DNA of 42,529 nt from a virus: positions 1 to 42,529 of the IMG/VR virus record IMGVR_UViG_3300010299_000013, one strand, 5' to 3'. Shown here piece after piece: positions 8,110 to 40,220 of the stretch (positions within the stretch are counted from its first letter, which is position 1; every line of letters begins with the position of its first letter). The notes under the pieces are model-generated. The model ran no database searches. It saw only the letters and a program-made list of their open reading frames with translations, and was not told the DNA's origin. A program made the position numbers and the translations under genes.

Positions 8110-11100
8110 ATGGCAGAATTGACATTCAAGAGCGCGGGAGTTAGTGCAACCGAAATCGACCTAACTGGACCATCAACAACTGGACCAACCGGAACGCCGG
8201 CCGGTATTATCGGCACAGCTCAGCGCGGACCAGCTTTCGTACCAGTTACAGTTGGAAATTTGCAAAACTTTGAAGCAACTTTCGGACAAAGTGATGGTGA
8301 AAAGTTTGGACCACTTGCAGCAGGCGAGTGGCTCACCAATGCCACAGCATTAACATATCTTCGTGTTCTTGGTGCTGGTACAGGTGAAAGAAGGCTAACA
8401 ACAGGAAATAATATTGGTTCTGTTGCATCAGCTGGATTCGTGGTTGGAGAACAACAACCACGTGATAGTGGAAACTTTGGAAATAATGGTTATGCTGTTC
8501 TTGATGGAGAACTTGGTAGACTTTATTTCCTTGGTTGTTTTATGAGTGAAACTGCTGGGTCTGATATTTTCTCAGCAGCAGGCATTCAAGATGGAGTCAA
8601 TGCTCACCCAATTATTCGTGGTGTAGTAATGGCTGCATCTGGTGTTATTTTAACACTTTCATCTTCAATGTCAGCATCTGATGCACCAAGCACAACATTG
8701 CCGGCACAGGCAGGAGCTGATCACCTTCAAGGTAATCTAACTGGTTCTGTTACTCTTCTTCAAGGAAGTACTGCTTTACAACGGTTTACAATGCTTTTGA
8801 ATGGACATGAGGGATCAGATGCTGCATATCCAAATGTAGTTACTGCATCTTTTGATTCAACAGCTCCAAACTATTTTGCAAATGTTTTCAATACAGATCC
8901 TTTGAAGCTTGAAAAAGCTGGTTATTACCTATACTCTCATTACGATATTCATCCAGCATTGGCTGCTGTAACAGGAACAGGTTTGCTTGCAGCTGCTTCT
9001 GGATCCGGAGCTGGTGGTGCAGGAGCAGAAGAGATTGCATTCCTTACTACATCTTCATTAGGACGAAATGCAGGATCACTAACAGTACCAAACTATGAAA
9101 ACTGGGAGGATCGATACAGTGCTCCAAAGAGTCCATATATCATTTCTCAGAATTTCGGTGGTACTCCAAAGAACTTGTTTAGAGTCCATGGATTGTCTGA
9201 TGGTGAAAGTGATGCTCAACTTTATAAGCTTTCTATTGAAAATATAGCACCACCCCAGTCAGAAGAAGATCTTTATGGAACATTTGATCTTGTTGTTAGA
9301 GATATTGGTGATACAGATGACGATAAAATCGTTCTTGAAAGCTATCGAGGATTGAGCTTCAATCCTTCAGCAGAAAGATTTATTGCAAGAGCAATCGGAG
9401 ATCAAAACGTATACTTTGACTTTGACAAGAGCACAGCTTCTCAAAAGCTTGTTGTTGATGGAAACTTCCCTAATGTTTCAAGCAGAATTAGGGTTGAAGT
9501 TACTGATGAAGTATTGAACGGAGATTTGGAACAAGAGGCATTGCCTGCTGGATTCCGTGGAAAGCTACACCTTGTAACTTCTGGTACAGCTCCATTGACA
9601 AACATAACAGCTCATTATCTAAACGGAAGTGATGTACTTAATAGAGCTATTGAGCCTCCAACTCCATTTAGAAAAAGTTTGGCAATTGGCGTTGATCCTA
9701 AAAAAGTTACGAATCGCAATCTTTACTGGGGTGTTCATTTTGAAAAGAATATTGATGTAAACGAGCCAAACAAAAGTTCTGAAGTTGAAGAAACTGTAAG
9801 AAGCTTTACTCGGTTTATGCCAGATTTTATGACCGTCAATCAAAACATGGTTGTTGGAAATAATGAAGGCACAGCTGATACAGCAGCAAATGGAATCTTA
9901 GATGCCGATAGATTCAATAATAACATTTTTAGTCTTGAAAGAATTCAGGTTGTTACTGGTTCTACTGGAAAGGCTGATCTAAAAACTATTGATCAATGGA
10001 CCTATGTTCGCGAAGGAAATATTGTTGCAAATGCTACAAATAAGACAAGAGCATTAGATTTGTCTACAGATTTGACAGTATTAGGTGTTCGTTCCTTGGC
10101 TAAATTCTCTTTGTTTATGCAGGGTGGATTTGATGGAGTCAATGTTTTCAATAAGAACGAATTTGATCTTGATAACAGAGCAGTTACTGAAGAAATGAAC
10201 TTTACAGCTCGCGGTCAAGACAATGGACCAACAGTAAGAGCTTATCGTAAAGCATTGGATATTATGGGAATAACTTCTGAAGTTGATATCAATGTTCTTG
10301 CTGTTCCTGGTATTAGAAATGCTGTTATAACTGATGCTGCAATCACAACGGTTGAAAACAGATTTGATGCCATTTATCTAATGGATATTGAAGAAAGAGA
10401 TACAGTTAATACTGTTGTTACTTCTTCTCTTCAAGATATCAATGTTCAGAATACGGTCAACTCTTTTGCTGCAAGAGCACTAGACTCAAGCTTCGCTGCG
10501 GCATACTTCCCAGATCTTGTTGTTAGAGATCCTGTGAATGACATTAATGTTCGTGTTCCTCCTTCTGTTGGGGTTATTGGAGCTTATGCATTGAATGATG
10601 CTGTAGCGTTCCCATGGTTTGCACCAGCAGGATTTACGCGAGGAGCTATGAGCAGAGTTTCTTCTGCTGCTGTCAGACTCAATAGAGAAAACCTTGATGA
10701 TCTTTATGAGGTTGATATTAACCCAATCATTGCATTCCCTGGTGGACCAGGAGTTACTGTTTGGGGTCAAAAGACACTTCTTGCAGCTCAAAGTGCTCTT
10801 GATCGTGTCAATGTCAGAAGACTTCTTCTTGAGCTTCGTCGTCGTGTACGAAGAATCGCTGAAGGATTCTTGTTTGAACCTAATCGTGAAGATACATTGA
10901 ACAGATTCTCTGCACGAGTGAATCCTGTTCTTAATAGGATTCAAGAACAATCTGGTGTTGATAGATTCAAGGTACAAATTGATACTACAACCACTACTCA
11001 AGCGGATATTGAAAATAATACTATCCGTGGTGTGATTTTCATTCAGCCAACAAGAACCGCAGAATTTGTTGCACTTGATTTTGTTGTTACAAATAACGGG

Positions 11101-11112
11101 GTTCAGGTCTGA
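8110..11112 (+). CDS. 18: Tail sheath protein, T4 gp18-like, copy 2
   Basis: This second sheath gene (1000 residues) starts 41 bases after copy 1 with its own AGGAGA site. The N-terminal block (GTPAGIIGTAQRGPAFVPVT) and C-terminal block (FPWFAPAGFTRGAM, SALDRVNVRRLLLELRRRVR, EFVALDFVVTNNG) closely match copy 1, while the middle 600 residues differ a good deal. The two therefore share the polymerising core and differ in surface domains. They could be mixed in one sheath, layered, or used at different positions. Both keep the strands needed for inter-subunit contacts, so neither looks dead. Confidence 0.95.
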   Translation: MAELTFKSAGVSATEIDLTGPSTTGPTGTPAGIIGTAQRGPAFVPVTVGNLQNFEATFGQSDGEKFGPLAAGEWLTNATALTYLRVLGAGTGERRLTTGNNIGSVASAGFVVGEQQPRDSGNFGNNGYAVLDGELGRLYFLGCFMSETAGSDIFSAAGIQDGVNAHPIIRGVVMAASGVILTLSSSMSASDAPSTTLPAQAGADHLQGNLTGSVTLLQGSTALQRFTMLLNGHEGSDAAYPNVVTASFDSTAPNYFANVFNTDPLKLEKAGYYLYSHYDIHPALAAVTGTGLLAAASGSGAGGAGAEEIAFLTTSSLGRNAGSLTVPNYENWEDRYSAPKSPYIISQNFGGTPKNLFRVHGLSDGESDAQLYKLSIENIAPPQSEEDLYGTFDLVVRDIGDTDDDKIVLESYRGLSFNPSAERFIARAIGDQNVYFDFDKSTASQKLVVDGNFPNVSSRIRVEVTDEVLNGDLEQEALPAGFRGKLHLVTSGTAPLTNITAHYLNGSDVLNRAIEPPTPFRKSLAIGVDPKKVTNRNLYWGVHFEKNIDVNEPNKSSEVEETVRSFTRFMPDFMTVNQNMVVGNNEGTADTAANGILDADRFNNNIFSLERIQVVTGSTGKADLKTIDQWTYVREGNIVANATNKTRALDLSTDLTVLGVRSLAKFSLFMQGGFDGVNVFNKNEFDLDNRAVTEEMNFTARGQDNGPTVRAYRKALDIMGITSEVDINVLAVPGIRNAVITDAAITTVENRFDAIYLMDIEERDTVNTVVTSSLQDINVQNTVNSFAARALDSSFAAAYFPDLVVRDPVNDINVRVPPSVGVIGAYALNDAVAFPWFAPAGFTRGAMSRVSSAAVRLNRENLDDLYEVDINPIIAFPGGPGVTVWGQKTLLAAQSALDRVNVRRLLLELRRRVRRIAEGFLFEPNREDTLNRFSARVNPVLNRIQEQSGVDRFKVQIDTTTTTQADIENNTIRGVIFIQPTRTAEFVALDFVVTNNGVQV

Positions 11113-11159
11113 TCCAAAATTTTAGGCAAAGATATATATATAAGAAATAGGAGAATAGC

Positions 11160-11648
11160 ATGGCAGAAGTACTTGAAGTCCAGGATATGTTAGCGAACAC
11201 TTTCGAACCAAAAAGAAAGTTTCGTTGGTTCTTAGCTATTGAAGGTATGGATGCATTTCTTTTGAAGAGTGCAGCCAGACCAACAATCCAAACAGAAGAA
11301 TTCCAAATAAATTACATTAACGCAACAAGATACCTTGCTTCGAAGTACACCTTCGAACCAATTGAAATTTCATTACATGATGCTATTGCGCCATCAGGTG
11401 CTCAGCAGGTTATGGAATGGATTCGTTTGGCTCATGAGCATGTTACCCAAAGAGCTGGTTACGCTGACTTTTATAAACGAGACATTCAACTTAAGATGCT
11501 TGATCCATTGGGTGCTGTTGTAGAATTGTGGGACATCAAAGGCGCATTCATTCAAAGTTCAAACTATGGAGAATTGGCTTACGATAACATGGAAAGTGCT
11601 GATATTACATTAACTGTAAGATTTGACCTCGCGGTGCTTCAATATTAA
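11160..11648 (+). CDS. 19: Tail tube protein, T4 gp19-like
   Basis: At 162 residues this matches the size of T4 gp19 (163). It forms the inner tube of stacked hexamers surrounded by the sheath. Family features visible are the early FEPKRKFRWFLAIEGMDAF strand pair, AARPTIQTEEFQINYIN (the loop-strand seen in tube and VgrG/Hcp-type folds), then YTFEPIEISLHDAI and a C-terminal VELWDIKGAFIQS strand with a final beta strand DITLTVRFDLAVL. It directly follows the sheath genes as in T4. AGGAGA lies 5-10 bases before the ATG, and an alternating TATATATA (11133-11140) could be a promoter box. Confidence 0.92.
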   Translation: MAEVLEVQDMLANTFEPKRKFRWFLAIEGMDAFLLKSAARPTIQTEEFQINYINATRYLASKYTFEPIEISLHDAIAPSGAQQVMEWIRLAHEHVTQRAGYADFYKRDIQLKMLDPLGAVVELWDIKGAFIQSSNYGELAYDNMESADITLTVRFDLAVLQY

Positions 11649-11819
11649 TTGATTATATTAACAATCTACATATGATTTGGCTGTTTGCAACAGGTTGGTT
11701 TTACAAAAGATGGTAGACTTGTTGCATATGATTGGTCAAGATTTTAATTAATTTATTGAATTTAACTTGTTTGTTGATATAAGATTGTTGATAGCAAAGC
11801 TATTCTTTGCCGGAAATAT

Positions 11820-11845
11820 GGACACCTTTTACAGGTGTCCTTTTT
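11820..11845 (+). terminator. Intrinsic terminator after the tail tube gene
   Basis: GGACACCT (11820-11827) pairs perfectly with AGGTGTCC (11833-11840) around a 5-base loop, followed by TTTTT. It ends the sheath-tube unit. Between the tube stop and this site (11649-11819) no convincing gene is seen; a 22-codon fragment ending at about 11750 (with GFTKDGRLVAYDWSRF) may be the relic of one. Confidence 0.8.
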
Positions 11846-12002
11846 CGTTTAAAGTATTGTTTTTATATTGAATATCTTGTTTTATTTTTTCAAAAATAAA
11901 ACTTAGAGATTTTGGTTTTTTGGCTATTTCTGGCGGCATAAGATAATACATTGATGTTCCGCAAGAGATGTGTCCTGTTCTAATTGTGTTTTTTTGTGTC
12001 AT
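11829..12002 (-). CDS. Small minus-strand protein, 57 aa
   Basis: ATG at 12002-12000 opens a 57-residue frame ending at TAA 11831-11829, inside the terminator stem of the tube gene. The protein begins MTQKNTIRTGHISCGTSMYY and contains LMPPEIAKKPKSLSF, a balanced and protein-like composition. Its ATG overlaps the stop of an upstream minus-strand frame as ATGA, the usual sign of translational coupling. Function is unknown. There is no clear Shine-Dalgarno sequence, as expected if it depends on re-initiation. Confidence 0.5.
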   Translation of the reverse strand: MTQKNTIRTGHISCGTSMYYLMPPEIAKKPKSLSFIFEKIKQDIQYKNNTLNEKGHL

Positions 12003-12109
12003 AAATAAAATTTACCACAAATTTGTAATTCATGATATGTACCTTCATCTAATGCTTTAACAAAGCATGGCTGCTGTCCTATTCTATGATTGGACCATCT
12101 GAAGGAAAT
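11999..12109 (-). CDS. Small minus-strand frame coupled to the 57-aa gene, start unclear
   Basis: The minus-strand frame ending at TGA 12001-11999 gives a protein-like tail: HRIGQQPCFVKALDEGTYHE then LQICGKFYL. No in-frame ATG, GTG or TTG lies between the plus-strand gp26-like start and this tail, so it would have to start at an ATT (near 12109) or farther inside the gp26-like gene in what looks like antisense sequence. It may be a 5'-truncated gene. The ATGA overlap with the following frame argues that the two belonged together. Confidence 0.35.
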   Translation of the reverse strand: MSFRWSNHRIGQQPCFVKALDEGTYHELQICGKFYL

Positions 12110-12117
12110 AATAATAT

Positions 12118-12957
12118 ATGTCAGATTCAAATGAAGTAGTAACAACAACACCACCAACAAGAGAACAAAATGCTGTTTTCGGTCAACCACAAGCTCCTCT
12201 TCTAGTAGATGATGTCCCATTTGAAAGCGTACCGCTTCCATCAAATGGATTGGTCTACCCAGAAAGTTCTAGTCTTCATGGCCGTGAAACTGTTGATATT
12301 CGTGTAATGACAGCACGTGAAGAAGATATTCTTACATCACGTGCCCTTATCAAAAAAGGCACAGTTATAACAGAACTTCTTAGAAGTTGTATTATGGACA
12401 AGAGTATCGATGTTCAAGACATGATTGCTGGTGATAGAAATGCAATTATGGTAGCATTGAGAATTACTGGGTATGGTGCAGACTATGGTGCAGAAATTCA
12501 GTGCAGTTCTTGCGATCACACATATGAAAATGAATTCAATTTAGCATTGCTTCCTTTGAAGCGTCTTGATATTGATCCAGTTAGACCTGGTGAAAATGCA
12601 TTTGAATTTACTCTTCCTGTTTCTAAAAAGCAAGTTCTTTTCAAGTTCTTGACTGGTAAAGATGAAGAAGATATTAATGTAACACAAGACAGAATGAAAA
12701 AACTTGGAAATTTCCAAGACTCATATGTCACAACAAGGCTAAAGCACTCAATTGTTAAAATTGGTGATGTCACTAGTAAGGGAGATATTGCACGATTTGT
12801 TGATAAAATGAGAGCTGGTGATAGTCGCGCTTTGCGTCGTTACATTGATAATCATGAGCCTGGGATGATCATGAAACAAGAATCTTCATGCCCAGCTTGT
12901 GGACACGAAGAGGAAGTGAGTATGCCCCTTGGCGCGGGCTTTTTTTGGCCTGAATGA
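12118..12957 (+). CDS. 26: Baseplate hub/assembly protein, T4 gp26-like (T4_baseplate family)
   Basis: This 279-residue protein has the plan of the phage T4_baseplate family (gp26-like): an early VPLPSNGLVYP motif, a helical region with DILTSRALIKKGT, a first CxxC pair (CSSCDHTYE, about residues 128-136), a second pair CPACGHEEE near residue 260 and the closing LGAGFFWPE. The two CxxC pairs probably bind one zinc. Such proteins lie just upstream of the tape measure and help hub assembly. AAGGAA stands 12 bases before the ATG. The final 29 bases overlap the next gene in the +1 frame, across a run of seven T. Confidence 0.72.
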   Translation: MSDSNEVVTTTPPTREQNAVFGQPQAPLLVDDVPFESVPLPSNGLVYPESSSLHGRETVDIRVMTAREEDILTSRALIKKGTVITELLRSCIMDKSIDVQDMIAGDRNAIMVALRITGYGADYGAEIQCSSCDHTYENEFNLALLPLKRLDIDPVRPGENAFEFTLPVSKKQVLFKFLTGKDEEDINVTQDRMKKLGNFQDSYVTTRLKHSIVKIGDVTSKGDIARFVDKMRAGDSRALRRYIDNHEPGMIMKQESSCPACGHEEEVSMPLGAGFFWPE

Positions 12958-13315
12958 TAAATCTTTTTATAATCGTGAAATATTTCTCTTAATGTATTAT
13001 GGAGGATTTACATATCATGAAGCTAAATTCTTGCCAATTAATTTAAGAAGATTTTTTATTAATGAAATTTCTAAAGAATTAAAAAGACAAAATGGAAAAA
13101 CTCCTGAAGAAGACGCTGATCGGCAAATGTCTAAATCTGAAAAAGAAATGCTAAAATCAAGGCTTATGCAGGCGAATCCAGAGGCATACAGGGCTCCAAA
13201 ACAAAATATAAATCAAAGTAGAGCACCTCATCACAATCAGCCCGAAGTAAGGGCTTTGCAAAATAAAGAAAGAACCAATATCCCAACAAGACTTATACGT
13301 TTTGATGGGCCTTAA
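12929..13315 (+). CDS. 51: Baseplate hub assembly protein, T4 gp51-like, start or frameshift uncertain
   Basis: This basic protein follows the gp26-like gene as gene 51 follows 26 in T4. The recognisable part is SFYNREIFLLMYYGGFTYHE then AKFLPINLRRFFINEI, close in pattern to the phage hub-assembly/tape-measure-chaperone segment 'FFLIKYG-x-F-(S/T)-Y-x-EA-x-x-LP-x-x-x-R-x-WF'. The rest is polar and probably disordered. The only ATG in frame (12992) would remove half of that conserved segment, so translation must begin at TTG 12929 or enter by a +1/-2 frameshift from the gp26-like frame at the T7 run (12941-12947). Tail-chaperone pairs made by frameshift are well known just before tape measures. 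Confidence 0.65.
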   Translation: MARAFFGLNDKSFYNREIFLLMYYGGFTYHEAKFLPINLRRFFINEISKELKRQNGKTPEEDADRQMSKSEKEMLKSRLMQANPEAYRAPKQNINQSRAPHHNQPEVRALQNKERTNIPTRLIRFDGP

Positions 13316-13318
13316 CAA

Positions 13319-13368
13319 TAAGCTCTTGCCATTTTTTTGATTATGACGATATTTATGGCAAGAGCTTA
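13319..13368 (+). repeat. Perfect 14-bp inverted repeat before the tape measure
   Basis: TAAGCTCTTGCCAT (13319-13332) and ATGGCAAGAGCTTA (13355-13368) are exact reverse complements separated by 22 bases. The right arm contains AAGAG, the only ribosome-binding-like sequence before the tape measure ATG (13376). No T run follows the right arm, so it is not a plain terminator. A hairpin here would hide the ribosome binding site. Confidence 0.75.
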
Positions 13369-13375
13369 AATTATT

Positions 13376-16300
13376 ATGGCCGATGCTAGTAATCTTGAAA
13401 TTCAGCAGCAATTAAACAAATTGCTTTCTGAGCAAAAAAAGATAATGCGTGATACCACGCGATCTTTGCGTGAGCAAGTGGGTTTAGCCAATGAAATGGC
13501 TGAAGCACTTAATAAAGCTAATATTGGCCAAGATCTTGTTCAAAAATCACAAAGTTTAAAGCAGTCTCTTATGGGAGCTGCTGAAGAAGCATCTAAATTT
13601 ACAAAAAATAATCAAGATATGGCATCGGCCGCATCAGGTGCATTACAAGAAACTGATGATGGTTTTGAAGGTCTTCTTGCAACATATGGAAAAGCAACAT
13701 CTAAAGCAAGTGCCTGGGGTGCTGCTACTGGTGGATTTATTGAGGGAATTACGAAAGGATTCGGTCTTTTAAAGACTGGTCTTTCTGGTGTTCTTTCTTT
13801 GGCCGGATCTGTTGTTGAAGGAATGTTTAGTATTGGAAAAGCTATATTAGCAATTCCATTTAAAATATTTAATGCATTTGTAAATGAGGCTAACAGAATG
13901 CGTGGCGAGCCATTGTTGGCTAGAGAGTTTGAAGAAACTCGAAAAAGTTTTGGTGATTTTGGTGAAGATTTATCAAAACATGTAATTGGTGGATATAAAA
14001 AACTTCGTGGAGAATTGGCTGAAACTGGATTGTCTGTTTATCGAGTTCTTGGATATCGTCATGAGCAATTAAAATTTGTTAGAGAACAGTTTGAGGCATT
14101 GGGTCCTGTTGCTCATCAGTTTGGTCAAGAAATAGCATCACAAGCTGAGCACTTTGCTGCATATCAAAAAGGACTAGGTCTTTCTGGTGAAATGATGAAA
14201 GGTTTAGCTCAAGCGACCCAGGGAACAGAAGACTCCTTTGAAGAAACACTAAGAACAACAACCAACTTTACAACAAACCTTGGAAAGAGATTTGGAATAT
14301 CTCAAAAGGTCATTGGACGTGATGTTGGAGAAATGTCTAAAGATTTAAAGACATTTGGCTCTGTTGGTGTTCGACAAATGGGGCAATTGTCTGTCTTTGC
14401 TCGTAAGCTTGGCGCTGACTTTAAAGATTTGCTTGGTGTTGTTAATAAATTTGACAACTTTGAAGATGCGGCTGAAAGTGCAGCTCGTTTAGCTCAAGCA
14501 TTCGGTCTAAACATTGATGCAATGGAAATGATCAATGAGCAAGACCCAGGTGCTCGAATTGAACAATTAAGAAAAGCTTTCTTCCAGACCGGTAAAGATA
14601 TTACCAAACTTACAAGACAAGAAAGAAATTATCTTGCTGCAACAGCAGGTATTGAAGATCAGGCATTGAACTCTGTCTTTGCATTGCAAAACCAAGGCAA
14701 GACATATGATGAAATTTCAGCAGCAGGACAAACAGCCGAACAACAACAAATCACACAAGCTGAAGCTATGCAAAAGCTATCTGATTCCATTGAGAGAATG
14801 ATTAAAAGTGGTCATCGTGTTGGTGGATTCTTCGATAGATTCATGATGGGATTCAAGCGAGGAATGCGCTGGGCCAAGCCATTCAGAGACGTGATGAGAA
14901 ATATTCGTAAGAGCTTGTGGGCAGCTGAACGAGCTGGTCGAGCTGTTGGTCGCGCATTTGTTCAAAGCTTCCCTGGTGTGAAGAAATTCCTTGAAGGAAT
15001 GAAAGACTTTTTTGATCCTAAAAAATTCCGAAGAATGGGTGGAAAAGTTGTTTCTGCATTCAAGACATTCTTTAAAGAGTTGGGTGACCCAAAGACATCA
15101 GAAAAAGCCCTTGGAAACTTACTTGGTTCATTGAAGAAAGCATTCTTTGGAATGGCCGGCGAACAACGCGGAGCCATGTCAAACATTATTGACGGATTCA
15201 AATCTGCATTCAAAGCAGTTGGTCAAATTATTCTATCTAGCATTAAAGTTGCAATGAAGTATATGAAGAAATTCTTCAAAGCAATAACAAAAGTTATTAA
15301 AGGAGAATCCTCTTTTGGTGATGCAATAGAAGAAATGTTCAATGATGGAGTAAATAAAGGTTCTTCATTTATGGGTGATGTTTGGAATATGATCCAAACA
15401 CAACTGGGACCCGTCACATCCCAGCTTGGAGATGCATTTGTCGAAATGATGGGCGAAGCATGGAAAAAGTTTGAGGACTGGTGGGAAGATATTGATTGGT
15501 GGGGTGTATTCAAGAAAGTCATTTCATCTGATGCTGGTAAGGCTTTGGCTGCTGTTATATTTGGACCAACATTTATCAAAGCTGGTATTAGTGGAATTGG
15601 AAGTCTACTAACATCACCTGCTGTATTGAGTTCAGTTGGAAAGTTTGCTGCAAGATTTGGCCCAACAGGAGCAGCGGCATTGGCAGCATTTGGTGCAGGT
15701 TTTGCATTAGGAAATTGGCTTGAAAAAGAATTCCAAATTTCAGATAAAATTATTGATAAATTTACAAACATCAATCAAAAAATGAATCGAGAAATTCTTG
15801 TAGAAACAACAAAGAATTCAAAGATGATTAGAGATGTTCAGATTAAAAACAATATTGAAGTATTGAAAAAGCAAGGCGCTGGACAAAATGTAATCAATGC
15901 ATTGAAATCTGATGAAGCAAATAGAACTCGTGAGATTGGAAAGCTTCTTAAAAACAATGTTGATCTTTCACTACAAGAAAGAAAAGTATTAATTCAAAAC
16001 CTTCAAATTGAACAAGATCGTTTGATTAATGAACGTGCAAGAATTAAATTTAAAGAAATGACAAAAGGTAAGCAGGTTCGAGGAATGGGACCTGCTAAAG
16101 AAGCAAGAGCTGCCGCAATTGCTGAATTGAAAGCATCTGGACAACTGGAAATGGATCCAGATAAGCTTGGAAAAGAATTGGTTGATCTAACAGAAAAGAC
16201 AGTTGGAATTGGAAAGAAAGTTGTTGAAAAAGCCAAGAAGCAAACACCTGAATTTTCTACATCAGATTTATTCTTTTCTATTGATAAAGCTGAAAGCTTA

Positions 16301-27301: not shown

Positions 27302-27696
27302 TGTTAAATGAAACAATAAAGTTAATTTTGCAAGAATTTTTTGATCAAAAAATTAATTGCATAGGATTGATAACAGCTCAAAACCCACAAGAACAGCAAC
27401 AAGATTCCAAATACAATGAATCTGCAAATGATAAATTGCTTGCTGATCTGCAAGGAATGGGATATGAACCTTTTCCAACATTTTATTATGGTGAAAGTGG
27501 GTTTTTAGTTCCAAATATTTCAAAGAGTTCATTAATTGGTCTTGGAAAAAAGTACAATCAGCGTGCCGTTATTTGGGGACAAAAAGTACCTGAAGACAGG
27601 AATGGACTTAGTTTTGAATGGAATTATTTGGAAGATGGAAAAATAAGAAATCAAAAAACATCAGGACATCCATTTGTTGTTCCTGAATTTAGTTGA
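27301..27696 (+). CDS. DUF3293-like protein, 131 aa
   Basis: Residues 22-36 (GLITAQNPQEQQQDS), N-x-x-LLADL, then a middle Gly-rich strand with FYYGESGFLVPNIS and finally LIGLGKKYNQRAVIWG follow the DUF3293 pattern (ITA-x-NP, N-x-x-L-x-x-x-L, E-S-F-x-V, A-x-x-x-x-Q-x-A-x-I). Function of that family is not established. The N-terminus MLNETIKLILQEFF resembles that of the metallopeptidase and of the 677-residue protein, a possible head-targeting peptide with an L-x-E site. It is translated from a TAATG overlap with the previous gene and converges on the GIY-YIG gene, overlapping it by 8 bases. Confidence 0.6.
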   Translation: MLNETIKLILQEFFDQKINCIGLITAQNPQEQQQDSKYNESANDKLLADLQGMGYEPFPTFYYGESGFLVPNISKSSLIGLGKKYNQRAVIWGQKVPEDRNGLSFEWNYLEDGKIRNQKTSGHPFVVPEFS

Positions 27697-28402
27697 TATT
27701 TTTCCATGTTTTATTATTTCTAATATTATAAATTGCTCTTAAAGATACATTGTATATATTTGAAATACTTTTATTATCATAACCATTTTTTATTAAGTCC
27801 TTGATTTTTATAACATCTTTTATTGTTAATTTTCTTTTTGTTTTTTTATCAAGAAGATTTTTATATTTTTTTGTTATGTGTGTCCATGTTTTGCCTGATT
27901 TAATTAGACTAACAGTGTCTTCACTAACATTAAAAGATTTTGCTATGTCTTTAATTGGTTCATTAGACAATATTGAAAAAATAATATTTTCAACATCTTT
28001 GTTTTTTAAATTTGTATTGGAATTGTTTTCTCCTATGTGAGATTGAGACATTTTCTGTTTTGTTTCTTTTGAGTGTTTTTTACCCCACCATATAGAATCT
28101 TTTCCTCTTGTTGTGTTTCCTCCTTTTTTTATGTTATATCCATTTGGAACTTCAGACTTATATTGCTCAATCCAAAATTTTTCTTTTTCATCAAGTTTAG
28201 AAATTTTACATGTTTCAATTTCATCTATGAAAAAATTGTCTTTTCCATATTTTTTTATGGCATTGCATATTGGATAATTTTTATGTTTTGACTGATGAAC
28301 ATGTGAATACCATCTTTTTATTATTGGTCTAATTGTTTGTCCTATGTAAACTTTTTTATTTATTTTATTTGTAAGAGAGTAAATAATTCCATTTCGTTCC
28401 AT
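27689..28402 (-). CDS. GIY-YIG homing endonuclease with NUMOD3/HTH domains
   Basis: From ATG 28402 the protein has an N-terminal GIY-YIG nuclease domain (residues 4-90): GIIYSLTNK, VYIGQTIRPIIKRWYSH with the catalytic Arg, and a later E in FWIEQY with NGYNIKKGG. Residues about 105-125 (GKKHSKETKQKMSQSHIG) form the NUMOD3-type DNA-contact repeat, and the C-terminal part has two helix-turn-helix-like units (IKDIAKSFNVSEDTVSLIKS and its copy DNKSISNIYNVSLRAIYNIR). Such enzymes cut a phage gene that lacks the element and spread by repair. It is freestanding and opposes its neighbours. The TTG at 28429 is a less likely start. Confidence 0.9.
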   Translation of the reverse strand: MERNGIIYSLTNKINKKVYIGQTIRPIIKRWYSHVHQSKHKNYPICNAIKKYGKDNFFIDEIETCKISKLDEKEKFWIEQYKSEVPNGYNIKKGGNTTRGKDSIWWGKKHSKETKQKMSQSHIGENNSNTNLKNKDVENIIFSILSNEPIKDIAKSFNVSEDTVSLIKSGKTWTHITKKYKNLLDKKTKRKLTIKDVIKIKDLIKNGYDNKSISNIYNVSLRAIYNIRNNKTWKNIN

Positions 28403-28476
28403 GTAAAACAATATATAAAATTTCAACAAAATTGAAATGGTATATCATAAAGCAATTAGAATTATTTTCTAAGTTA

Positions 28477-28588: not shown

Positions 28589-28663
28589 GAGATCTCACAA
28601 ACAACCACAGTGATTGAAAGGTTGAGAGGATATAATGGCAAAATTAAATCTAACAAAACTTAA
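28562..28663 (+). CDS. Possible 33-codon leader peptide overlapping the ssb start
   Basis: ATG 28562 opens a 33-residue frame (MIERPRVLFEISQ, then TTTVIERLRGYNG) that runs over the ssb ATG at 28635 and stops at TAA 28661. It contains two imperfect direct repeats of 18 bases (28563-28580 and 28611-28628, differing only by transitions), so the peptide repeats IER. AAGG lies about 8 bases before its ATG. Real translation is unproven; it may only reflect repeated RNA sites. Confidence 0.3.
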   Translation: MIERPRVLFEISQTTTVIERLRGYNGKIKSNKT

Positions 28664-34380: not shown

Positions 34381-34465
34381 TTTCCATATGTAGTTTTTAC
34401 ATAACCCGCCACACCACAATATATTGCGACAAGTCGTAATCTTTAAATGTCTGGAGATTGTGATA

Positions 34466-36493
34466 ATGAAATTTTATACCCGTGAACAAGCATTAGAAAA
34501 ATCAATAAACTATTTCAATGGCGATACACTCGCTGCTGATGTATTCGTAAAAAAATATGCATTATCTGATGGAGAGAAGTTTTATGAACAAACTCCAGAT
34601 GAAATGCATAAAAGACTAGCAAAAGAATTTGCTAGAATTGAAGAAAATTATCCAAATCCAATGACAGAAGATGAAATTTTTAGTCTTTTGGATAGGTTTC
34701 AGTATATTGTTCCACAAGGTTCTCCTATGAGTGCCATTGGAAATGATATGCAAGTTCAATCTACTAGCAATTGTTTTGTAATTCAGTCACCATATGACAG
34801 TTATGGTGGTATTTTAAAAACTGATCAAGAACTTGTTCAAATTGCAAAAAGACGTGGTGGTATTGGTTTTGACATATCTACAATCAGACCAAAAGGCATG
34901 AGAACAAATAATGCTGCTAAAACTACAGACGGCATTGGTGTTTTCATGGAAAGGTATAGCAATTCAACAAGAGAGGTTGCTCAAAATGGACGTCGAGGAG
35001 CATTGATGTTAACCATTTCAGTGCATCACCCAGAAATACTTACATTTATCAATATAAAAAGAGATTTAAATAAAGTAACTGGTGCGAATATCAGTGTTAG
35101 ACTGAGTGATGAATTCATGCAAGCAGTGAAAGATGATACTGAAGTCGAACTTCGTTGGCCAGTAGATTCAAGAGATCCTCAAGTTAGTGAAAAAGTATCT
35201 GCAAAAATGATTTGGGATGAAATCATTGAAAATGCCCATGCTACAGCAGAGCCTGGGCTTTTGTTTTGGGATACTGCAAAAACAATGACACCTTCTGACA
35301 TTTATGAAGACGAAGGATTTGGTAGTGTTTCAACAAATCCATGTGGAGAAATTATTCTTTCTCCTTACGATAGTTGTAGACTTCTTCTTATTAATCTTAT
35401 TTCTTTTGTAAGAAATCCATTTACAAAAGATGCATTTTTTGATTACAAACTTTATAATCAAATTGTCCGAAAAGCTCAACGTCTTATGGATGATATGATT
35501 GATTTAGAGCTTGAAAAAATTGGGAAAATTCTTTCAAAAATAGAGAAAGATTCTGAACCAGATCATGTAAAAAGGACAGAAAAAGAACTCTGGACAAGTG
35601 TATATGATGCTTGTCGTCGTGGAAGAAGAACCGGTCTTGGGGTCACAGCAGTTGGAGACACATTGGCTGCATTAGGAATTGTTTATGGTTCCACTGAAAG
35701 TATTAGTGTTGTTGAAGAAATTTATAAAAATCTTGGTTTGGCAAGTTATACCGAATCAATTAATTTAGCAGAAGAAAGAGGATCTTTTTCCGTTTGTAAT
35801 GTAGAAAAGGAAATGAGACACCCATTTATTAAAAGAATCCTCGACAATCTTCCGGCAGATATTTTTAATAAATACAAAAAGCATGGTAGGAGGAATATTG
35901 CGAATACAACAACAGCTCCCGCAGGATCAGTATCATGTTTAACTCAAACAACTTCTGGAATAGAGCCAGCGTATTTGCTAGAATACAAACGCCGTCGAAA
36001 GTTAATGCATAATGAAGAACTGGAGCCAGATTTTGTTGATAATATTGGTGATCGTTGGATTGAGTACAAGGTCTATCACCACGGATACAAAAAGTGGATG
36101 GAGATTTCAGGAAGAGATCGAGTTGAGGAATCGCCGTATTTCGGAGCGACATCAAACGACATAGATTGGGTATCTAAAATCAAAATGCAAGCAGCTGCTC
36201 AAAAGTGGATTTGCCATGCAATTTCTAATACGACAAACGTCCCAGAAGATACCTCTGTTGATAAAATCAAAAAGATTTATATGACAGGTTGGGAACATGG
36301 ATGCAAAGGTGTAACTGTGTATCGTGACGGTAGTCGTACTGGTGTTTTGGTTCAAGATAAAAAGAAGCCAAAGAAATACGAAATTGTCACAGGCGATGGA
36401 AGTATTATGATTTTAAACAGCACTGACATGGTAGAATACCAAGGAAAGAGCGTTAAATTGGCAGATATTGTAGAGGATTTGCAGTTAAAATGA
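34466..36493 (+). CDS. nrdJ: Class II (B12-dependent) ribonucleotide reductase, catalytic part
   Basis: NrdJ reduces ribonucleotides to deoxyribonucleotides using adenosylcobalamin. Residues (from the ATG at 34466): SNCF with Cys103, NPCGE (291-295, Cys293 the radical Cys, with Asn and Glu), and Cys304 eleven residues later, which repeats the T. maritima NrdJ spacing Cys322/Cys333. The late segment VYRDGSRTGVL is also typical. The C-terminal Cys-rich part of the enzyme is missing here and is encoded by the next gene, which overlaps by four bases. The start is ATG 34466, after GGAG, rather than the upstream TTG 34424, which has no ribosome binding site. Confidence 0.9.
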   Translation: MKFYTREQALEKSINYFNGDTLAADVFVKKYALSDGEKFYEQTPDEMHKRLAKEFARIEENYPNPMTEDEIFSLLDRFQYIVPQGSPMSAIGNDMQVQSTSNCFVIQSPYDSYGGILKTDQELVQIAKRRGGIGFDISTIRPKGMRTNNAAKTTDGIGVFMERYSNSTREVAQNGRRGALMLTISVHHPEILTFINIKRDLNKVTGANISVRLSDEFMQAVKDDTEVELRWPVDSRDPQVSEKVSAKMIWDEIIENAHATAEPGLLFWDTAKTMTPSDIYEDEGFGSVSTNPCGEIILSPYDSCRLLLINLISFVRNPFTKDAFFDYKLYNQIVRKAQRLMDDMIDLELEKIGKILSKIEKDSEPDHVKRTEKELWTSVYDACRRGRRTGLGVTAVGDTLAALGIVYGSTESISVVEEIYKNLGLASYTESINLAEERGSFSVCNVEKEMRHPFIKRILDNLPADIFNKYKKHGRRNIANTTTAPAGSVSCLTQTTSGIEPAYLLEYKRRRKLMHNEELEPDFVDNIGDRWIEYKVYHHGYKKWMEISGRDRVEESPYFGATSNDIDWVSKIKMQAAAQKWICHAISNTTNVPEDTSVDKIKKIYMTGWEHGCKGVTVYRDGSRTGVLVQDKKKPKKYEIVTGDGSIMILNSTDMVEYQGKSVKLADIVEDLQLK

Positions 36494-37092
36494 TTAAAAT
36501 TGACAAGGGTGTAGTTTCAATCAAGGAGATTGATCCAAATTTACCTGAACGAATTATATACGAAAGTGCACCAAAAAGGCCATCGATTCTATCTTGCGAC
36601 ATTCACAGAAAGATGATCAAAGGAGAAGAGTGGACAATTTTTGTTGGTCTTCTTGAGGGTGATCCATTTGAAATATTTGGAGGTCTATCTGATACGATAG
36701 AAATTCCAAAAAAATATAAACAAGGCAAAATAAAGAAAAGATCCTTCAAGGGCGGAGGAAAATATGATCTTGTTCTTGGTGAAGGTGAAGAAGAAATGAA
36801 AGTTAAAGACATTGTCAAGGTATTTGACAATGCAAATTATTCAGCATTTACAAGATTGCTTTCTTTGTCTATGAGACATGGTGCTCCGATTATGTATGTC
36901 GTTGAACAGTTGCTTCGCGACAAAGAAGCTGATATGCATAGTTTTGCAAAGGTCATGGCACGAGTTTTGAAAACATATATTGCAGATGGCGTTAAGCGCG
37001 ATAGAACATGTGATGACTGTGGTAGTACTGAAATGGCCTATGAAGAAGGCTGTTTGAAGTGCATGAGCTGTGGCTATGCAAAATGTGGATAA
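36490..37092 (+). CDS. nrdJ: C-terminal part of split class II ribonucleotide reductase
   Basis: This 200-residue protein matches the C-terminal third of one-piece NrdJ: KRPSILSCDIHRKMIKGEEW, FVGLLEGDPFEIFGG, a middle with FTRLLSLSMRHGAPI, ARVLKTYIADG and the closing zinc/redox tail CDDCGSTEMAYEEGCLKC then CGYAKCG. In class II enzymes the final cysteines shuttle electrons to the active site. The ATG overlaps the TGA of the catalytic gene (ATGA), which suggests coupled synthesis of two subunits. A two-gene NrdJ (nrdJa/nrdJb) is known in Pseudomonas aeruginosa, so a working split enzyme is plausible. Confidence 0.88.
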   Translation: MIKIDKGVVSIKEIDPNLPERIIYESAPKRPSILSCDIHRKMIKGEEWTIFVGLLEGDPFEIFGGLSDTIEIPKKYKQGKIKKRSFKGGGKYDLVLGEGEEEMKVKDIVKVFDNANYSAFTRLLSLSMRHGAPIMYVVEQLLRDKEADMHSFAKVMARVLKTYIADGVKRDRTCDDCGSTEMAYEEGCLKCMSCGYAKCG

Positions 37093-37516: not shown

Positions 37517-37998
37517 AATTGTATTATATTAACTGGTGGTCCTTGTGGTGGAAAAACTACAGCATTGGCAAAAATAACAGAACGATTAGAAACATTGGGA
37601 TATGTTGTAATTATTTGTTCAATGACGATGGACTTGAAGCTAGAGTTCGTAGACGCGGCCAGAACGGTCACAGCATTTATACATATTGCACGAAGACCAA
37701 AGCAGTCTCCAAGCTCAAGCGCATGCAAAAAGAACATCAAATAAGTGGTAAAGAGTATCTCAAGCTTCTTGAAAAACGAGATCCAGCAAGAAAAACCATC
37801 AGAAAACAACGTTATTGCTTTTTGTATTATGGAAAATATTTTGAATTGGATATTTTTACAGATCTTGATTTAATGATGCTTGAGGTAGAGCTAGAACATG
37901 AAGATGATCAATTTGAACTACCAGAAGCATTCAATGTAATAAAAGAAGTTACAGATGATTCGTCATATTCCAACTATGCCTTGGCTAAAATAAATTAA
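37500..37998 (+). pseudogene. Broken P-loop ATPase (AAA_28-type) / CYTH fusion gene
   Basis: Three pieces of one ancestral protein lie in three frames. ATG 37500 gives MNKIHKIVLY then a stop. Just after, another frame gives LTGGPCGGKTTALAKITERL, a Walker A of the AAA_28/NadR kind, continuing to about 37610. The third frame, from about 37615 to 37998, gives DGLEARVRRRGQNG, a Glu/Asp-rich middle and VIKEVTDDSSYSNYALAK, a CYTH triphosphatase-like domain. The first shift is explained by a 5-bp tandem copy, TATTA-TATTA (37522-37531); removing one copy restores MNKIHKIVLTGGPCGGK. The second joint has lost most of the ATPase. A 159-residue reading frame exists from TTG 37519, but its first 35 residues are out-of-frame ATPase sequence. 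Confidence 0.8.
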
Positions 37999-38005
37999 TA
38001 ATCAC

Positions 38006-38013
38006 ATATTTAT
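38006..38013 (+). promoter_or_regulatory. A+T box within an inverted repeat, before a GTG start
   Basis: ATATTTAT lies 4 bases before GTG 38018, inside the inverted repeat CACATA (38003-38008) / TATGTG (38015-38020), whose right arm contains the start codon. No Shine-Dalgarno sequence is present. Confidence 0.35.
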
Positions 38014-38017
38014 TTAT

Positions 38018-38227
38018 GTGAAGAACTATTATCCATATTTTGGTTATCCATCTAGTTTGTATCAAAAACATGATGACGAAGATGATATAATTAAAGATAT
38101 TCCTAATGATATGGAAATTTGTTCTGAAATGGGCTGTATTAAAGGTTCTGTTTTGCTTTTGTATTCAAGAATACCTTGTACAAAATGTAATGGAACAGGT
38201 AGAGTCAAAAAAACTATAAGTAAATGA
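38018..38227 (+). CDS. Small zinc-ribbon-like protein, 69 aa
   Basis: The start is GTG 38018, since the overlapping ATG runs straight into a stop. The protein has an aromatic N-terminus (YYPYFGYPSSLY), an acidic stretch (HDDEDDIIKD), and four cysteines as CSEMGC and CTKCNGTGR. The last is a CxxCxGxG motif, as in the zinc-binding repeats of DnaJ. The four Cys could hold one zinc, giving a small zinc finger. No partner is known. A similar Cys/Gly motif opens the DHFR gene 1.3 kb downstream. Confidence 0.55.
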   Translation: MKNYYPYFGYPSSLYQKHDDEDDIIKDIPNDMEICSEMGCIKGSVLLLYSRIPCTKCNGTGRVKKTISK

Positions 38228-38259
38228 TGTCTTCTGTATGCTAGACTATTTTGTAGACC

Positions 38260-39561
38260 ATGAAAAAATGTTTAGATTTAACAAATGAAAAATATGGAAA
38301 ATTAACAGTCATAAAAGAAGAGTCAAGAATTTCAAAATATGAAAGAAGATGGCTTTGTCTGTGTGAATGTGGAAATAAATCCATTGTAAGTCAAAGAAAT
38401 TTAAGAAATGGAAAAACTGTTAGTTGTGGTTGTTTTAGATTAGAACAACTTCAAAAGGCAAGAACAAAACATGGATTTGCTAAGGAAAAATCAAGATGTT
38501 CAGAATATAATACTTGGCGAACGATGTTATCTAGATGTAATAATCCTAATTCAAAATCTTATAAATACTATGGTGAAAAAGGTATAAAGGTTTGTGAAAG
38601 ATGGAATGATTTTGAAAATTTTTATAAAGATATGGGACCAAAACCAAATAAAAAATATTCTATAGACAGAATTGATAATTTGAAAGATTATGAACCTGAA
38701 AATTGTAGATGGTATCCTGCTAAAAAGCAGGCAAACAATAGAAGTAGCAATAAAACTGCTGAAAAACAATATCTAGAAATTTTAGAAAACATATTAGATC
38801 ATGGAGAAAATAGAGAGGACAGAACTGGTGTTGGTACTATCTCTATTTTCTCCCCGCAAAAAATAGAGGTATTTTTAGATCAAGGGTTTCCTTTATTGAC
38901 AACAAAAAAAATGGCTTGGATCAACATGATTGATGAATTGTTGTGGTTTTTATCTGGCAAAAGCAATATCAATGACTTGCCAAACAGGACAAAGCATTGG
39001 TGGAAACCATGGGCTGATGAAAATGGGGATTTAGGTCCTGTTTACGGGGTTTTATGGAGAAAATGGCCTTATAAAGATAAAAAAATAGATCAATTATTAA
39101 ATCTTATTAATTCAATTAAAAACAATCCCTATTCTAGAAGACACATATTGACAACATGGCATCCTGGAGAATTAGAAAATCAGGCACTACCCCCATGTCA
39201 TGGGCTTGTAATTCAGTTTTATGTTGACAAAGATAGACAATTGTCATGTAGTGTATATCAAAGATCTGCTGATTGTTTTATTGGTTTACCACATAATATT
39301 GCTTCCTATAGTTTGTTTTTGATGATGATAGCACAGGTGTGTGAATTGACTCCATATAAATTATCTTATTTGGTTGGAGATGCTCACATTTACAATAATC
39401 ATATTGATCAGGTAAAACTTCAGTTATCACGAGAACCAAAAACAGGTCCTAAAATGATTATAAATCCTGAAATAAAGAATATTGATGACTTCAAATATGA
39501 AGACTTCAAGCTTGAAGGATATGAACATCACCCAGCAATTAAGGGAGAGGTATCAGTATGA
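38260..39561 (+). CDS. thyA: HNH endonuclease fused to thymidylate synthase
   Basis: Residues 1-165 are a phage HNH-type nuclease: YGKLTVIKEES, a zinc knuckle (WLCLCECGN, then SCGC at 55-58), WRTMLSRCNNPNSKSYKYYG, CERWNDFENFYKDMG and SIDRIDNLKDYEPENCRWYP. Residues 168-433 are a complete ThyA: EKQYLEILENILDHG, DRTGVGTISIF, FPLLTTKK, ELLWFLSG, the catalytic Cys313 in LPPCH, QRSADCFIGLPHNIASYSLF and LQLSREP. ThyA turns dUMP into dTMP with methylene-tetrahydrofolate. There is no start codon at the domain joint; the next Met lies well inside ThyA. So the synthase can only be made as a fusion unless it starts at an unusual codon. It overlaps the DHFR gene by four bases. Confidence 0.92.
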   Translation: MKKCLDLTNEKYGKLTVIKEESRISKYERRWLCLCECGNKSIVSQRNLRNGKTVSCGCFRLEQLQKARTKHGFAKEKSRCSEYNTWRTMLSRCNNPNSKSYKYYGEKGIKVCERWNDFENFYKDMGPKPNKKYSIDRIDNLKDYEPENCRWYPAKKQANNRSSNKTAEKQYLEILENILDHGENREDRTGVGTISIFSPQKIEVFLDQGFPLLTTKKMAWINMIDELLWFLSGKSNINDLPNRTKHWWKPWADENGDLGPVYGVLWRKWPYKDKKIDQLLNLINSIKNNPYSRRHILTTWHPGELENQALPPCHGLVIQFYVDKDRQLSCSVYQRSADCFIGLPHNIASYSLFLMMIAQVCELTPYKLSYLVGDAHIYNNHIDQVKLQLSREPKTGPKMIINPEIKNIDDFKYEDFKLEGYEHHPAIKGEVSV

Positions 39562-40220
39562 GTCACAGATATGACTGCCCAGGAGGATGTAAAGGAAGAG
39601 GTTCTTTTGAAGTACCAATTCCGATCGAAGAAAGACCAACGGTATGCTATGACCATTGGGATAAATACGATTATATTCCATGTGATGGTGGGATCAAAAA
39701 AGCTAAAGGAAACATGAAATTAGCTTCAGTTGTCGCTATGACACCAGGAACACACATTATTGGTAAAAATAATGAAATTCCATGGAGAATACCTTCGGAC
39801 TTGAAAAGATTCAAACAATTGACATTGAATTCTCCGGTTATAATGGGAAGAAAAACATATGAAAGTATTATTGCATTTCTAAAAAAACCATTACCAGATA
39901 GAGTTAATATTGTTTTGACAACAAATAAAAAATACAAAGCTCCTGGTTGTATTGTGGTAAATGATTTAAGATCAGCATTTGAGGCTTGTGGAAATGTTGA
40001 AAAAGCATTTGTTATTGGTGGAGCAAAAATTTATGATTTAACAATGCCATACATTGATGAATTATTGGTTTCTTTTGTTTTGGGTGCTTATGATGGAGAT
40101 ACAGCATTTCCCAAATTTGAAAAGGAGTGGAAGCTTGTTTCGTCAGAATTGGCTGAAAAAGGTCCAAAAGACGATATTCTTCACTCGTTTTGTGTCTTTA
40201 GAAGAAAAAAATCATTGTAA
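39558..40220 (+). CDS. dfrA: Dihydrofolate reductase with Cys-rich N-terminal extension
   Basis: DHFR reduces the dihydrofolate made by ThyA, which is the previous gene (overlap ATGA). From residue 53 on the enzyme is complete: MKLASVVAMTPG, NEIPWRIPSDLKRFKQLT, SPVIMGRKTYESI, a RVNIVLTTN strand and FVIGGAKIYDLTMPYIDEL. Residues 1-52 are extra: DCPGGCKGRG, then C-Y-D-H and IPCDGG, a CxxxCxGxG-plus-two-Cys array that might bind zinc. Normal DHFR would start at Met53 (ATG 39714), where AAAGGA lies only 3 bases upstream, so a separate short product is possible but poorly spaced. Confidence 0.9.
   Translation: MSHRYDCPGGCKGRGSFEVPIPIEERPTVCYDHWDKYDYIPCDGGIKKAKGNMKLASVVAMTPGTHIIGKNNEIPWRIPSDLKRFKQLTLNSPVIMGRKTYESIIAFLKKPLPDRVNIVLTTNKKYKAPGCIVVNDLRSAFEACGNVEKAFVIGGAKIYDLTMPYIDELLVSFVLGAYDGDTAFPKFEKEWKLVSSELAEKGPKDDILHSFCVFRRKKSL

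Follow-up and report, generated by a model that had tools for sequence, protein, structure and literature searches.

An in-frame joining of a homing-type HNH endonuclease to the N-terminus of a phage thymidylate synthase

Introduction

The stretch of DNA analysed here (the window) comprises all 42,529 bases of an IMG/VR virus record and, judged from its tail sheath gene, it probably belongs to a phage with a contractile tail. On its plus strand, at 38260-39561, an HNH endonuclease and a thymidylate synthase (ThyA) are encoded in a single ORF of 433 codons that runs from ATG to TGA without an internal stop. It is probable that an HNH gene of homing type inserted at the start of thyA and captured the translation of ThyA. 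Mobile endonuclease genes usually spare the host gene, either through splicing (introns and inteins) or by taking an intergenic position. The window fusion would be a natural case of a mobile gene that takes the start of a useful gene without splicing. The features of the locus are collected in Table 1.

Table 1. Features of the fusion ORF and its neighbours, in window positions
Feature	Position	Strand	Basis or remarks
69-aa ORF, probably equivalent to the small cysteine-rich gene of L222	38018..38227	+	gene order and weak sequence resemblance
Leader of the fusion ORF	38228..38259	+	no Shine-Dalgarno-like sequence, a feature shared with the leaders of thyA in L222, L001 and L227
HNH nuclease part, residues 1-164	38260..38751	+	complete short form, phrog_374; AF2 mean pLDDT 90
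Zinc-knuckle cysteines, C33-x-C35-x-C37-G-N ... S-C56-G-C58	38356..38433	+	invariant columns, 67-sequence alignment
Predicted beta-beta-alpha nuclease core, YSIDRIDN...Y..ENCRW...Q..N, residues 133-160	38656..38739	+	AF2 secondary structure
Junction, K165 T166 A167	38752..38760	+	three codons without stop or start; ThyA-only alignment and codon scan
Thymidylate synthase, residue 168 to stop	38761..39561	+	PF00303 1-266/266; GAA (E168) at the relatives' start-codon position
DHFR ORF	39558..40220	+	PF00186 from residue 57; ATGA overlap with the fusion stop, as in L001 and L222

The Fusion ORF and Its Junction

In profile searches, the phrog_374 HNH endonuclease family covers residues 1-166 of the ORF (E 4e-62), and PF00303 aligns in full (1-266/266, E 1e-103) with residues 169-433; these values exclude chance matches for both halves. 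The sequence-only reading had described a complete HNH nuclease and a complete ThyA in one ORF, and these searches bear it out. Its domain boundaries (1-165 and 168-433) are slightly corrected, with the junction at N164-K165-T166-A167 followed by E168, the residue that aligns to ThyA Met1 of the relatives that carry ThyA alone. ThyA had also been said to have no start codon of its own, and a codon scan agrees: ATG, GTG and TTG are absent from all frames between 38712 and 38800, and stops near the junction interrupt the two remaining frames. Because this stretch is free of starts in every frame, a single indel error would give ThyA no start of its own.

Separate ThyA could be made from a start inside the HNH part (M89, M125 or TTG L141, all in frame) or from the near-cognate AUU and AUA codons at 38779 and 38791, which are possible weak starts; most ThyA would then be made without the whole nuclease. 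The two in-frame ATGs lie 80 and 44 codons upstream of ThyA, and in the Salmonella phage SPLA3 the 3' end of an HNH element gives the start GGAGAATAAAACAATG to a separate thyA. In the window, however, no Shine-Dalgarno-like sequence is seen by eye ahead of M89, M125 or L141, the 38712-38800 stretch offers no start codon, and a protein started at M125 would still carry 43 residues of HNH in front of ThyA. Separate production from an internal start is therefore quite unlikely.

Spliced arrangements were also considered and rejected. A group I intron of the td type finds no Rfam intron match, and the HNH and ThyA parts have no non-coding space between them. The window gives no Rfam match at gathering score, and a relaxed threshold over 37900-39700 yields nothing beyond low-scoring, chance-level, non-intron matches; these scans were run without a known intron as a positive control, and Rfam is silent at the split thyA of L216 (see below) as well, so that this silence alone is weak evidence. 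An intein is rejected because the ORF begins with the HNH part itself and an in-frame TAG lies at 38254, which leaves no room for an N-extein. Judged from the sequence, the fusion appears to be neither a td-type intron nor an intein. A bifunctional DHFR-TS is rejected as well, since the N-terminal partner is HNH and DHFR is the separate next ORF.

The Nuclease Half

In an alignment of 67 sequences, the HNH part of the window retains all 12 invariant and all 20 nearly invariant columns. The invariant residues include C33, C35, C37, G38, S55, C56 and C58 of the zinc knuckle and R137, Y144 and N148 of the nuclease core, in which W151, Q157 and N160 are nearly invariant. By sequence, the nuclease half belongs to the phrog_374 family. 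Among 98 other phrog_374-type HNH genes the end of the frame varies and many have an extra C-terminal region of about 55 residues; 26 of the 98 end no more than 14 residues from the end point of the window HNH, so the window HNH is the whole short form and not a truncated one. The window tail, KQANNRSSN, is almost identical to the tail QQANNRSTN of the HNH genes at L151 and L164. Searches of the PDB returned nothing below E 0.6 for the fold of the AF2 model and one irrelevant lipoprotein for the sequence. The HNH part has a GC content of 27% (13% at third codon positions), against 33% (26%) for the ThyA part and 35% for the window, and this low value is consistent with an acquired element. Elsewhere in the window, on the opposite strand at 27689-28429 (-), a GIY-YIG homing endonuclease gene with NUMOD3 (GC 23%) adjoins a gene at 28635, so the genome has at least two homing-type genes.

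The Thymidylate Synthase Half

Numbered from residue 167, the ThyA part has R22, K50, E60, W82, C147, H148, R169, D172, N180, H210 and Y212. These positions are invariant over nine phage ThyA proteins and include the catalytic cysteine and others that contact substrate and cofactor in E. coli thymidylate synthase. The predicted model superposes on the E. coli enzyme with a TM score of 0.96, and the structure search also matched two protozoal DHFR-TS entries (6aog and 3dga). By its sequence, complete fold and catalytic residues, this half is a thymidylate synthase. Its terminal branch in the tree is long (0.99 vs a median of 0.44), and it carries two unique one-residue insertions and the substitution F345H, so that thymidylate synthase function may be altered, shifted or relaxed. 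The tree test does not reject common descent with ThyA of L001 and of L222 (p-AU 0.37).

The Insertion Point

Relatives of the window phage were located through the helicase and ThyA. In L222, a small cysteine-rich gene is followed after 45 bp by ThyA alone, which starts ATG AGA CAG TAT TTA GAT (MRQYLDLL), and then by DHFR with an ATGA overlap; in L001, ThyA alone (MQQYLNLI) and DHFR share the same type of overlap. The window has a small gene, 32 bp, HNH-ThyA and the DHFR ORF in the same overlap, so that about 500 bp of HNH separate ThyA codon 2 from a leader that resembles those of the relatives in being without a Shine-Dalgarno sequence. The small 69-aa ORF had no tblastn match at 1e-4, and the window copy no family match. 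L222 and L001 thus serve as empty alleles, from which the insertion maps to the start codon of thyA, although their divergence from the window is too high for a base-exact boundary. The search for ThyA-only relatives that the sequence-only reading had proposed was therefore fruitful, with a gene order that is partly shared; as for a homing gene, the insertion lies at a conserved gene of which empty alleles exist. Judged by helicase and RNR, the nearest relative is L217, in which this locus contains no ThyA and no HNH. The 677-aa protein encoded downstream matched no relatives in viral_contigs.

Two apparent traces of the insertion were rejected. The start of the HNH part, MKKCLDLT, could be read as a relic of the ThyA start MKQYLDLL; its likeness to a thyA start ranks second of the 1066 window ATGs and exceeds that of 68 other HNH starts. 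An unrelated ATG nevertheless has a better score, and the HNH family itself typically has LDLT, which leaves the likeness suggestive only. The motif GTATGCT, common to the leaders of L001 and the window, is not enriched over chance.

Other changes were seen in the neighbourhood. The DHFR ORF begins with a 52-aa N-terminal extension (39558-39713, +) that contains CPGGCKGRG and further Cys and His residues and that L001 and L222 lack in their DHFR. A DHFR-like start is found at the internal ATG 39714, which makes the extension a second in-frame N-terminal addition, directly after the fusion gene. At 34424-37092 (+), the window has RNR and a separate TSCPD-domain gene, which are also found in L217, whereas L001 has nrdB and nrdA; the nucleotide-metabolism block from the helicase to the 677-aa protein is exchanged between relatives. 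The related phage L227 carries at 9839-15031 (+) a ribonucleotide reductase ORF of 1730 aa whose inserts resemble several inteins (with ends such as THNC, VHNC and SHNT). Upstream of the fusion, 37532-37998 (+) holds one probable gene that lies in two frames and whose middle is apparently missing; it shows a P-loop (GGPCGGKTTALAK) and, towards the C-terminus, a CYTH-like part, with weak matches to AAA_28 (E 0.003) and CYTH (E 0.006). It is apparently a decayed gene, a programmed shift or a local sequence error.

The broken look of this P-loop/CYTH gene points to real decay or to indels near the fusion in the contig, and the fusion itself might be an artefact, either of neighbouring genes joined by a wrong indel (a stop missed through sequence error) or of a chimeric contig. 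The window is an IMG/VR record without an isolate, and the apparently frameshifted gene lies 260 bp upstream. An indel at the junction, however, would still not provide ThyA with a start codon in any of the frames. Gene order also agrees with L222, with the small Cys-rich ORF before the fusion and DHFR after it, and the same adjacency of HNH and thyA occurs in SPLA3, an independent complete genome. We regard an artefact as highly improbable.

Other Unspliced HNH Insertions in thyA

The Salmonella phage SPLA3 (OR413581, Seoulvirus) carries an element of 935 bp exactly at its thyA start codon. The element consists of two phrog_374-family HNH modules and separates the ribosome-binding site of thyA from its start, a place at which SPN3US and MET_P1 are uninterrupted. 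The second module is 40% identical to the window HNH; the last one is degenerate and has lost the DRIDN motif. The stop of the element is formed by the thyA ATGA, so ThyA stays a separate gene. Nucleases of one family have thus reached the thyA start codon in two phages that are unrelated. A co-conversion tract in SPLA3 was considered and set aside as not clean, since SPN3US and MET_P1 also differ there.

In the Bacillus phage 015DV002, gp207 is annotated simply as thymidylate synthase and carries an HNH of another family, phrog_2081, in frame within an internal ThyA loop; the IMG/VR loci L023, L025 and L026 are arranged in the same way, and these internal HNH-ThyA loci give no Rfam intron match. 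Between 015DV002 and 015DV004 the flanks share 95-100% identity, apart from a tract of about 150 bp immediately after the insertion that begins at 65%. Co-conversion during homing leaves one-sided divergence beside an insertion, and the divergent tract is presumably co-converted sequence. In the Bacillus phages KKP_4047, 4048 and 4050 (L216, 1568-1865, +), an interruption of about 300 bp at a different position divides thyA, which is annotated as two thymidylate synthase genes; the split thyA of KKP_4047 gives no Rfam match. The window, SPLA3 and the internal in-frame loci together make ThyA a repeated recipient of unspliced HNH elements.

Rarity of the N-Terminal Fusion

HNH is joined to the N-terminus of ThyA in one of 105 ThyA loci, that of the window, although the fusion searches may miss records very near the window's own and a close sister is possible. 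The 98 HNH relatives include no fusion with an enzyme. A degenerate junction pattern, which covers GAA-coded ENCRW only, had 5 matches in viral_contigs and 13 in genome_contigs, none with HNH or ThyA homology. A literature search, with subscription papers mostly outside its coverage, found thymidylate synthase introns but no HNH-TS fusion. HNH-dUTPase fusions by annotation (Rosita and TJE2) were rejected because gene lengths and neighbours fit a stand-alone HNH misnamed dUTPase. No other example of the N-terminal HNH-ThyA fusion was found.

As a second independent N-terminal fusion was not found, a rare accident or a decaying allele is possible. The nuclease would then be decaying or tamed after a chance read-through in one lineage, tolerated with ThyA still made or dispensable. 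The finding of a single case in 105 ThyA loci and in 98 HNH relatives, the long ThyA branch with its unusual substitutions and the lack of thyA at the locus in L217 are in keeping with such a dead end. On the other hand, the 433 codons contain no stop and preserve every invariant HNH residue together with all catalytic residues of ThyA. What decay looks like can be seen in SPLA3, whose HNH at this site is degenerate and has lost DRIDN. A dead end is therefore somewhat unlikely.

A Model for the Origin of the Fusion

In the preferred model, a zinc-knuckle phrog_374 HNH gene of homing type would have entered a phage thyA at its start codon and removed that codon. With the HNH stop absent or lost, the two reading frames would become one, and ribosomes starting at 38260 would make one nuclease-thymidylate synthase polypeptide of 433 aa from which nothing is spliced out. 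The C-terminal ThyA would fold as a normal thymidylate synthase despite its N-terminal partner, as in protozoal DHFR-TS. ThyA would need the HNH start for its translation, which would tie the nuclease frame to ThyA, and the insertion would break the presumed recognition site at the 5' end of thyA and so protect the allele.

The homing-type origin is well supported because an HNH of the same family lies at the same point of thyA in the unrelated SPLA3. The in-frame element of 015DV002, with its presumably co-converted tract, also fits, but it belongs to another family, phrog_2081, which weighs against the explanation, as does the unclean tract of SPLA3. The sequence-only reading had proposed that thyA took up a homing-type nuclease as an N-terminal domain; the origin holds up (empty alleles, AT-rich HNH, invariant residues and SPLA3), whereas homing by this copy, as the route, is what we infer, together with translation as one polypeptide and an active synthase. 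That reading also took the enzyme to be essential; dependence of the phage on it is no more than possible, as L217 has no thyA there. A bolder reading is that the mobile nuclease is now a constitutive N-terminal domain, with both activities kept, the thymidylate synthase dimer pairing two HNH domains and ThyA made only through the nuclease start; this we offer tentatively, as possible but doubtful. If so, selection for the enzyme would maintain a selfish gene without any splicing element. With translation taken over at the start codon, as the model has it, loss of the nuclease frame would cost the enzyme. Together with SPLA3, whose HNH gene at this codon stays separate, and with the in-frame insertions inside ThyA, the window makes thyA a series of unspliced HNH insertions, in which it becomes testable whether enzyme selection keeps a selfish nuclease alive or fusion tames the nuclease.

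Comparison with Known Systems

The SPLA3 element shares with the window the HNH family, the site at the thyA start codon and a known empty site (SPN3US and MET_P1). It differs in having two modules, the last degenerate, in a separate gene whose stop overlaps the thyA ATGA, so that ThyA keeps its own start. The 015DV002 gp207 type (with L023, L025 and L026) resembles the window in joining HNH and thymidylate synthase in one ORF with no intron or intein found, but its insertion lies in an internal ThyA loop and is of phrog_2081.

Thymidylate synthase introns are known from T4 td (group I, with I-TevI), beta22 and pVa5 (PMC2988022, PMC5746245). As in the window, a mobile endonuclease exploits the thymidylate synthase gene. 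There, however, a self-splicing intron lies inside the gene and the endonuclease stays outside the enzyme, whereas the window has an insertion at the start codon, a fused protein and no intron; the analogy with T4 td that had been drawn for the window is thus loose. Free-standing HNH homing genes can also split phage genes, such as mobE in nrdA of Aeh1 and mobA in gene 60 of T4 (PMC2988022). These too are unspliced HNH insertions in genes of nucleotide or DNA metabolism, but they split the host gene into two polypeptides, whereas ThyA of the window gains an N-terminal domain. Protozoal DHFR-TS (6aog and 3dga) likewise has a partner fused to the N-terminus of thymidylate synthase, although that partner is DHFR, an enzyme of the pathway, and in the window it is a nuclease with DHFR as the next gene. 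The window fusion would work like a homing element that holds the start of its host gene.
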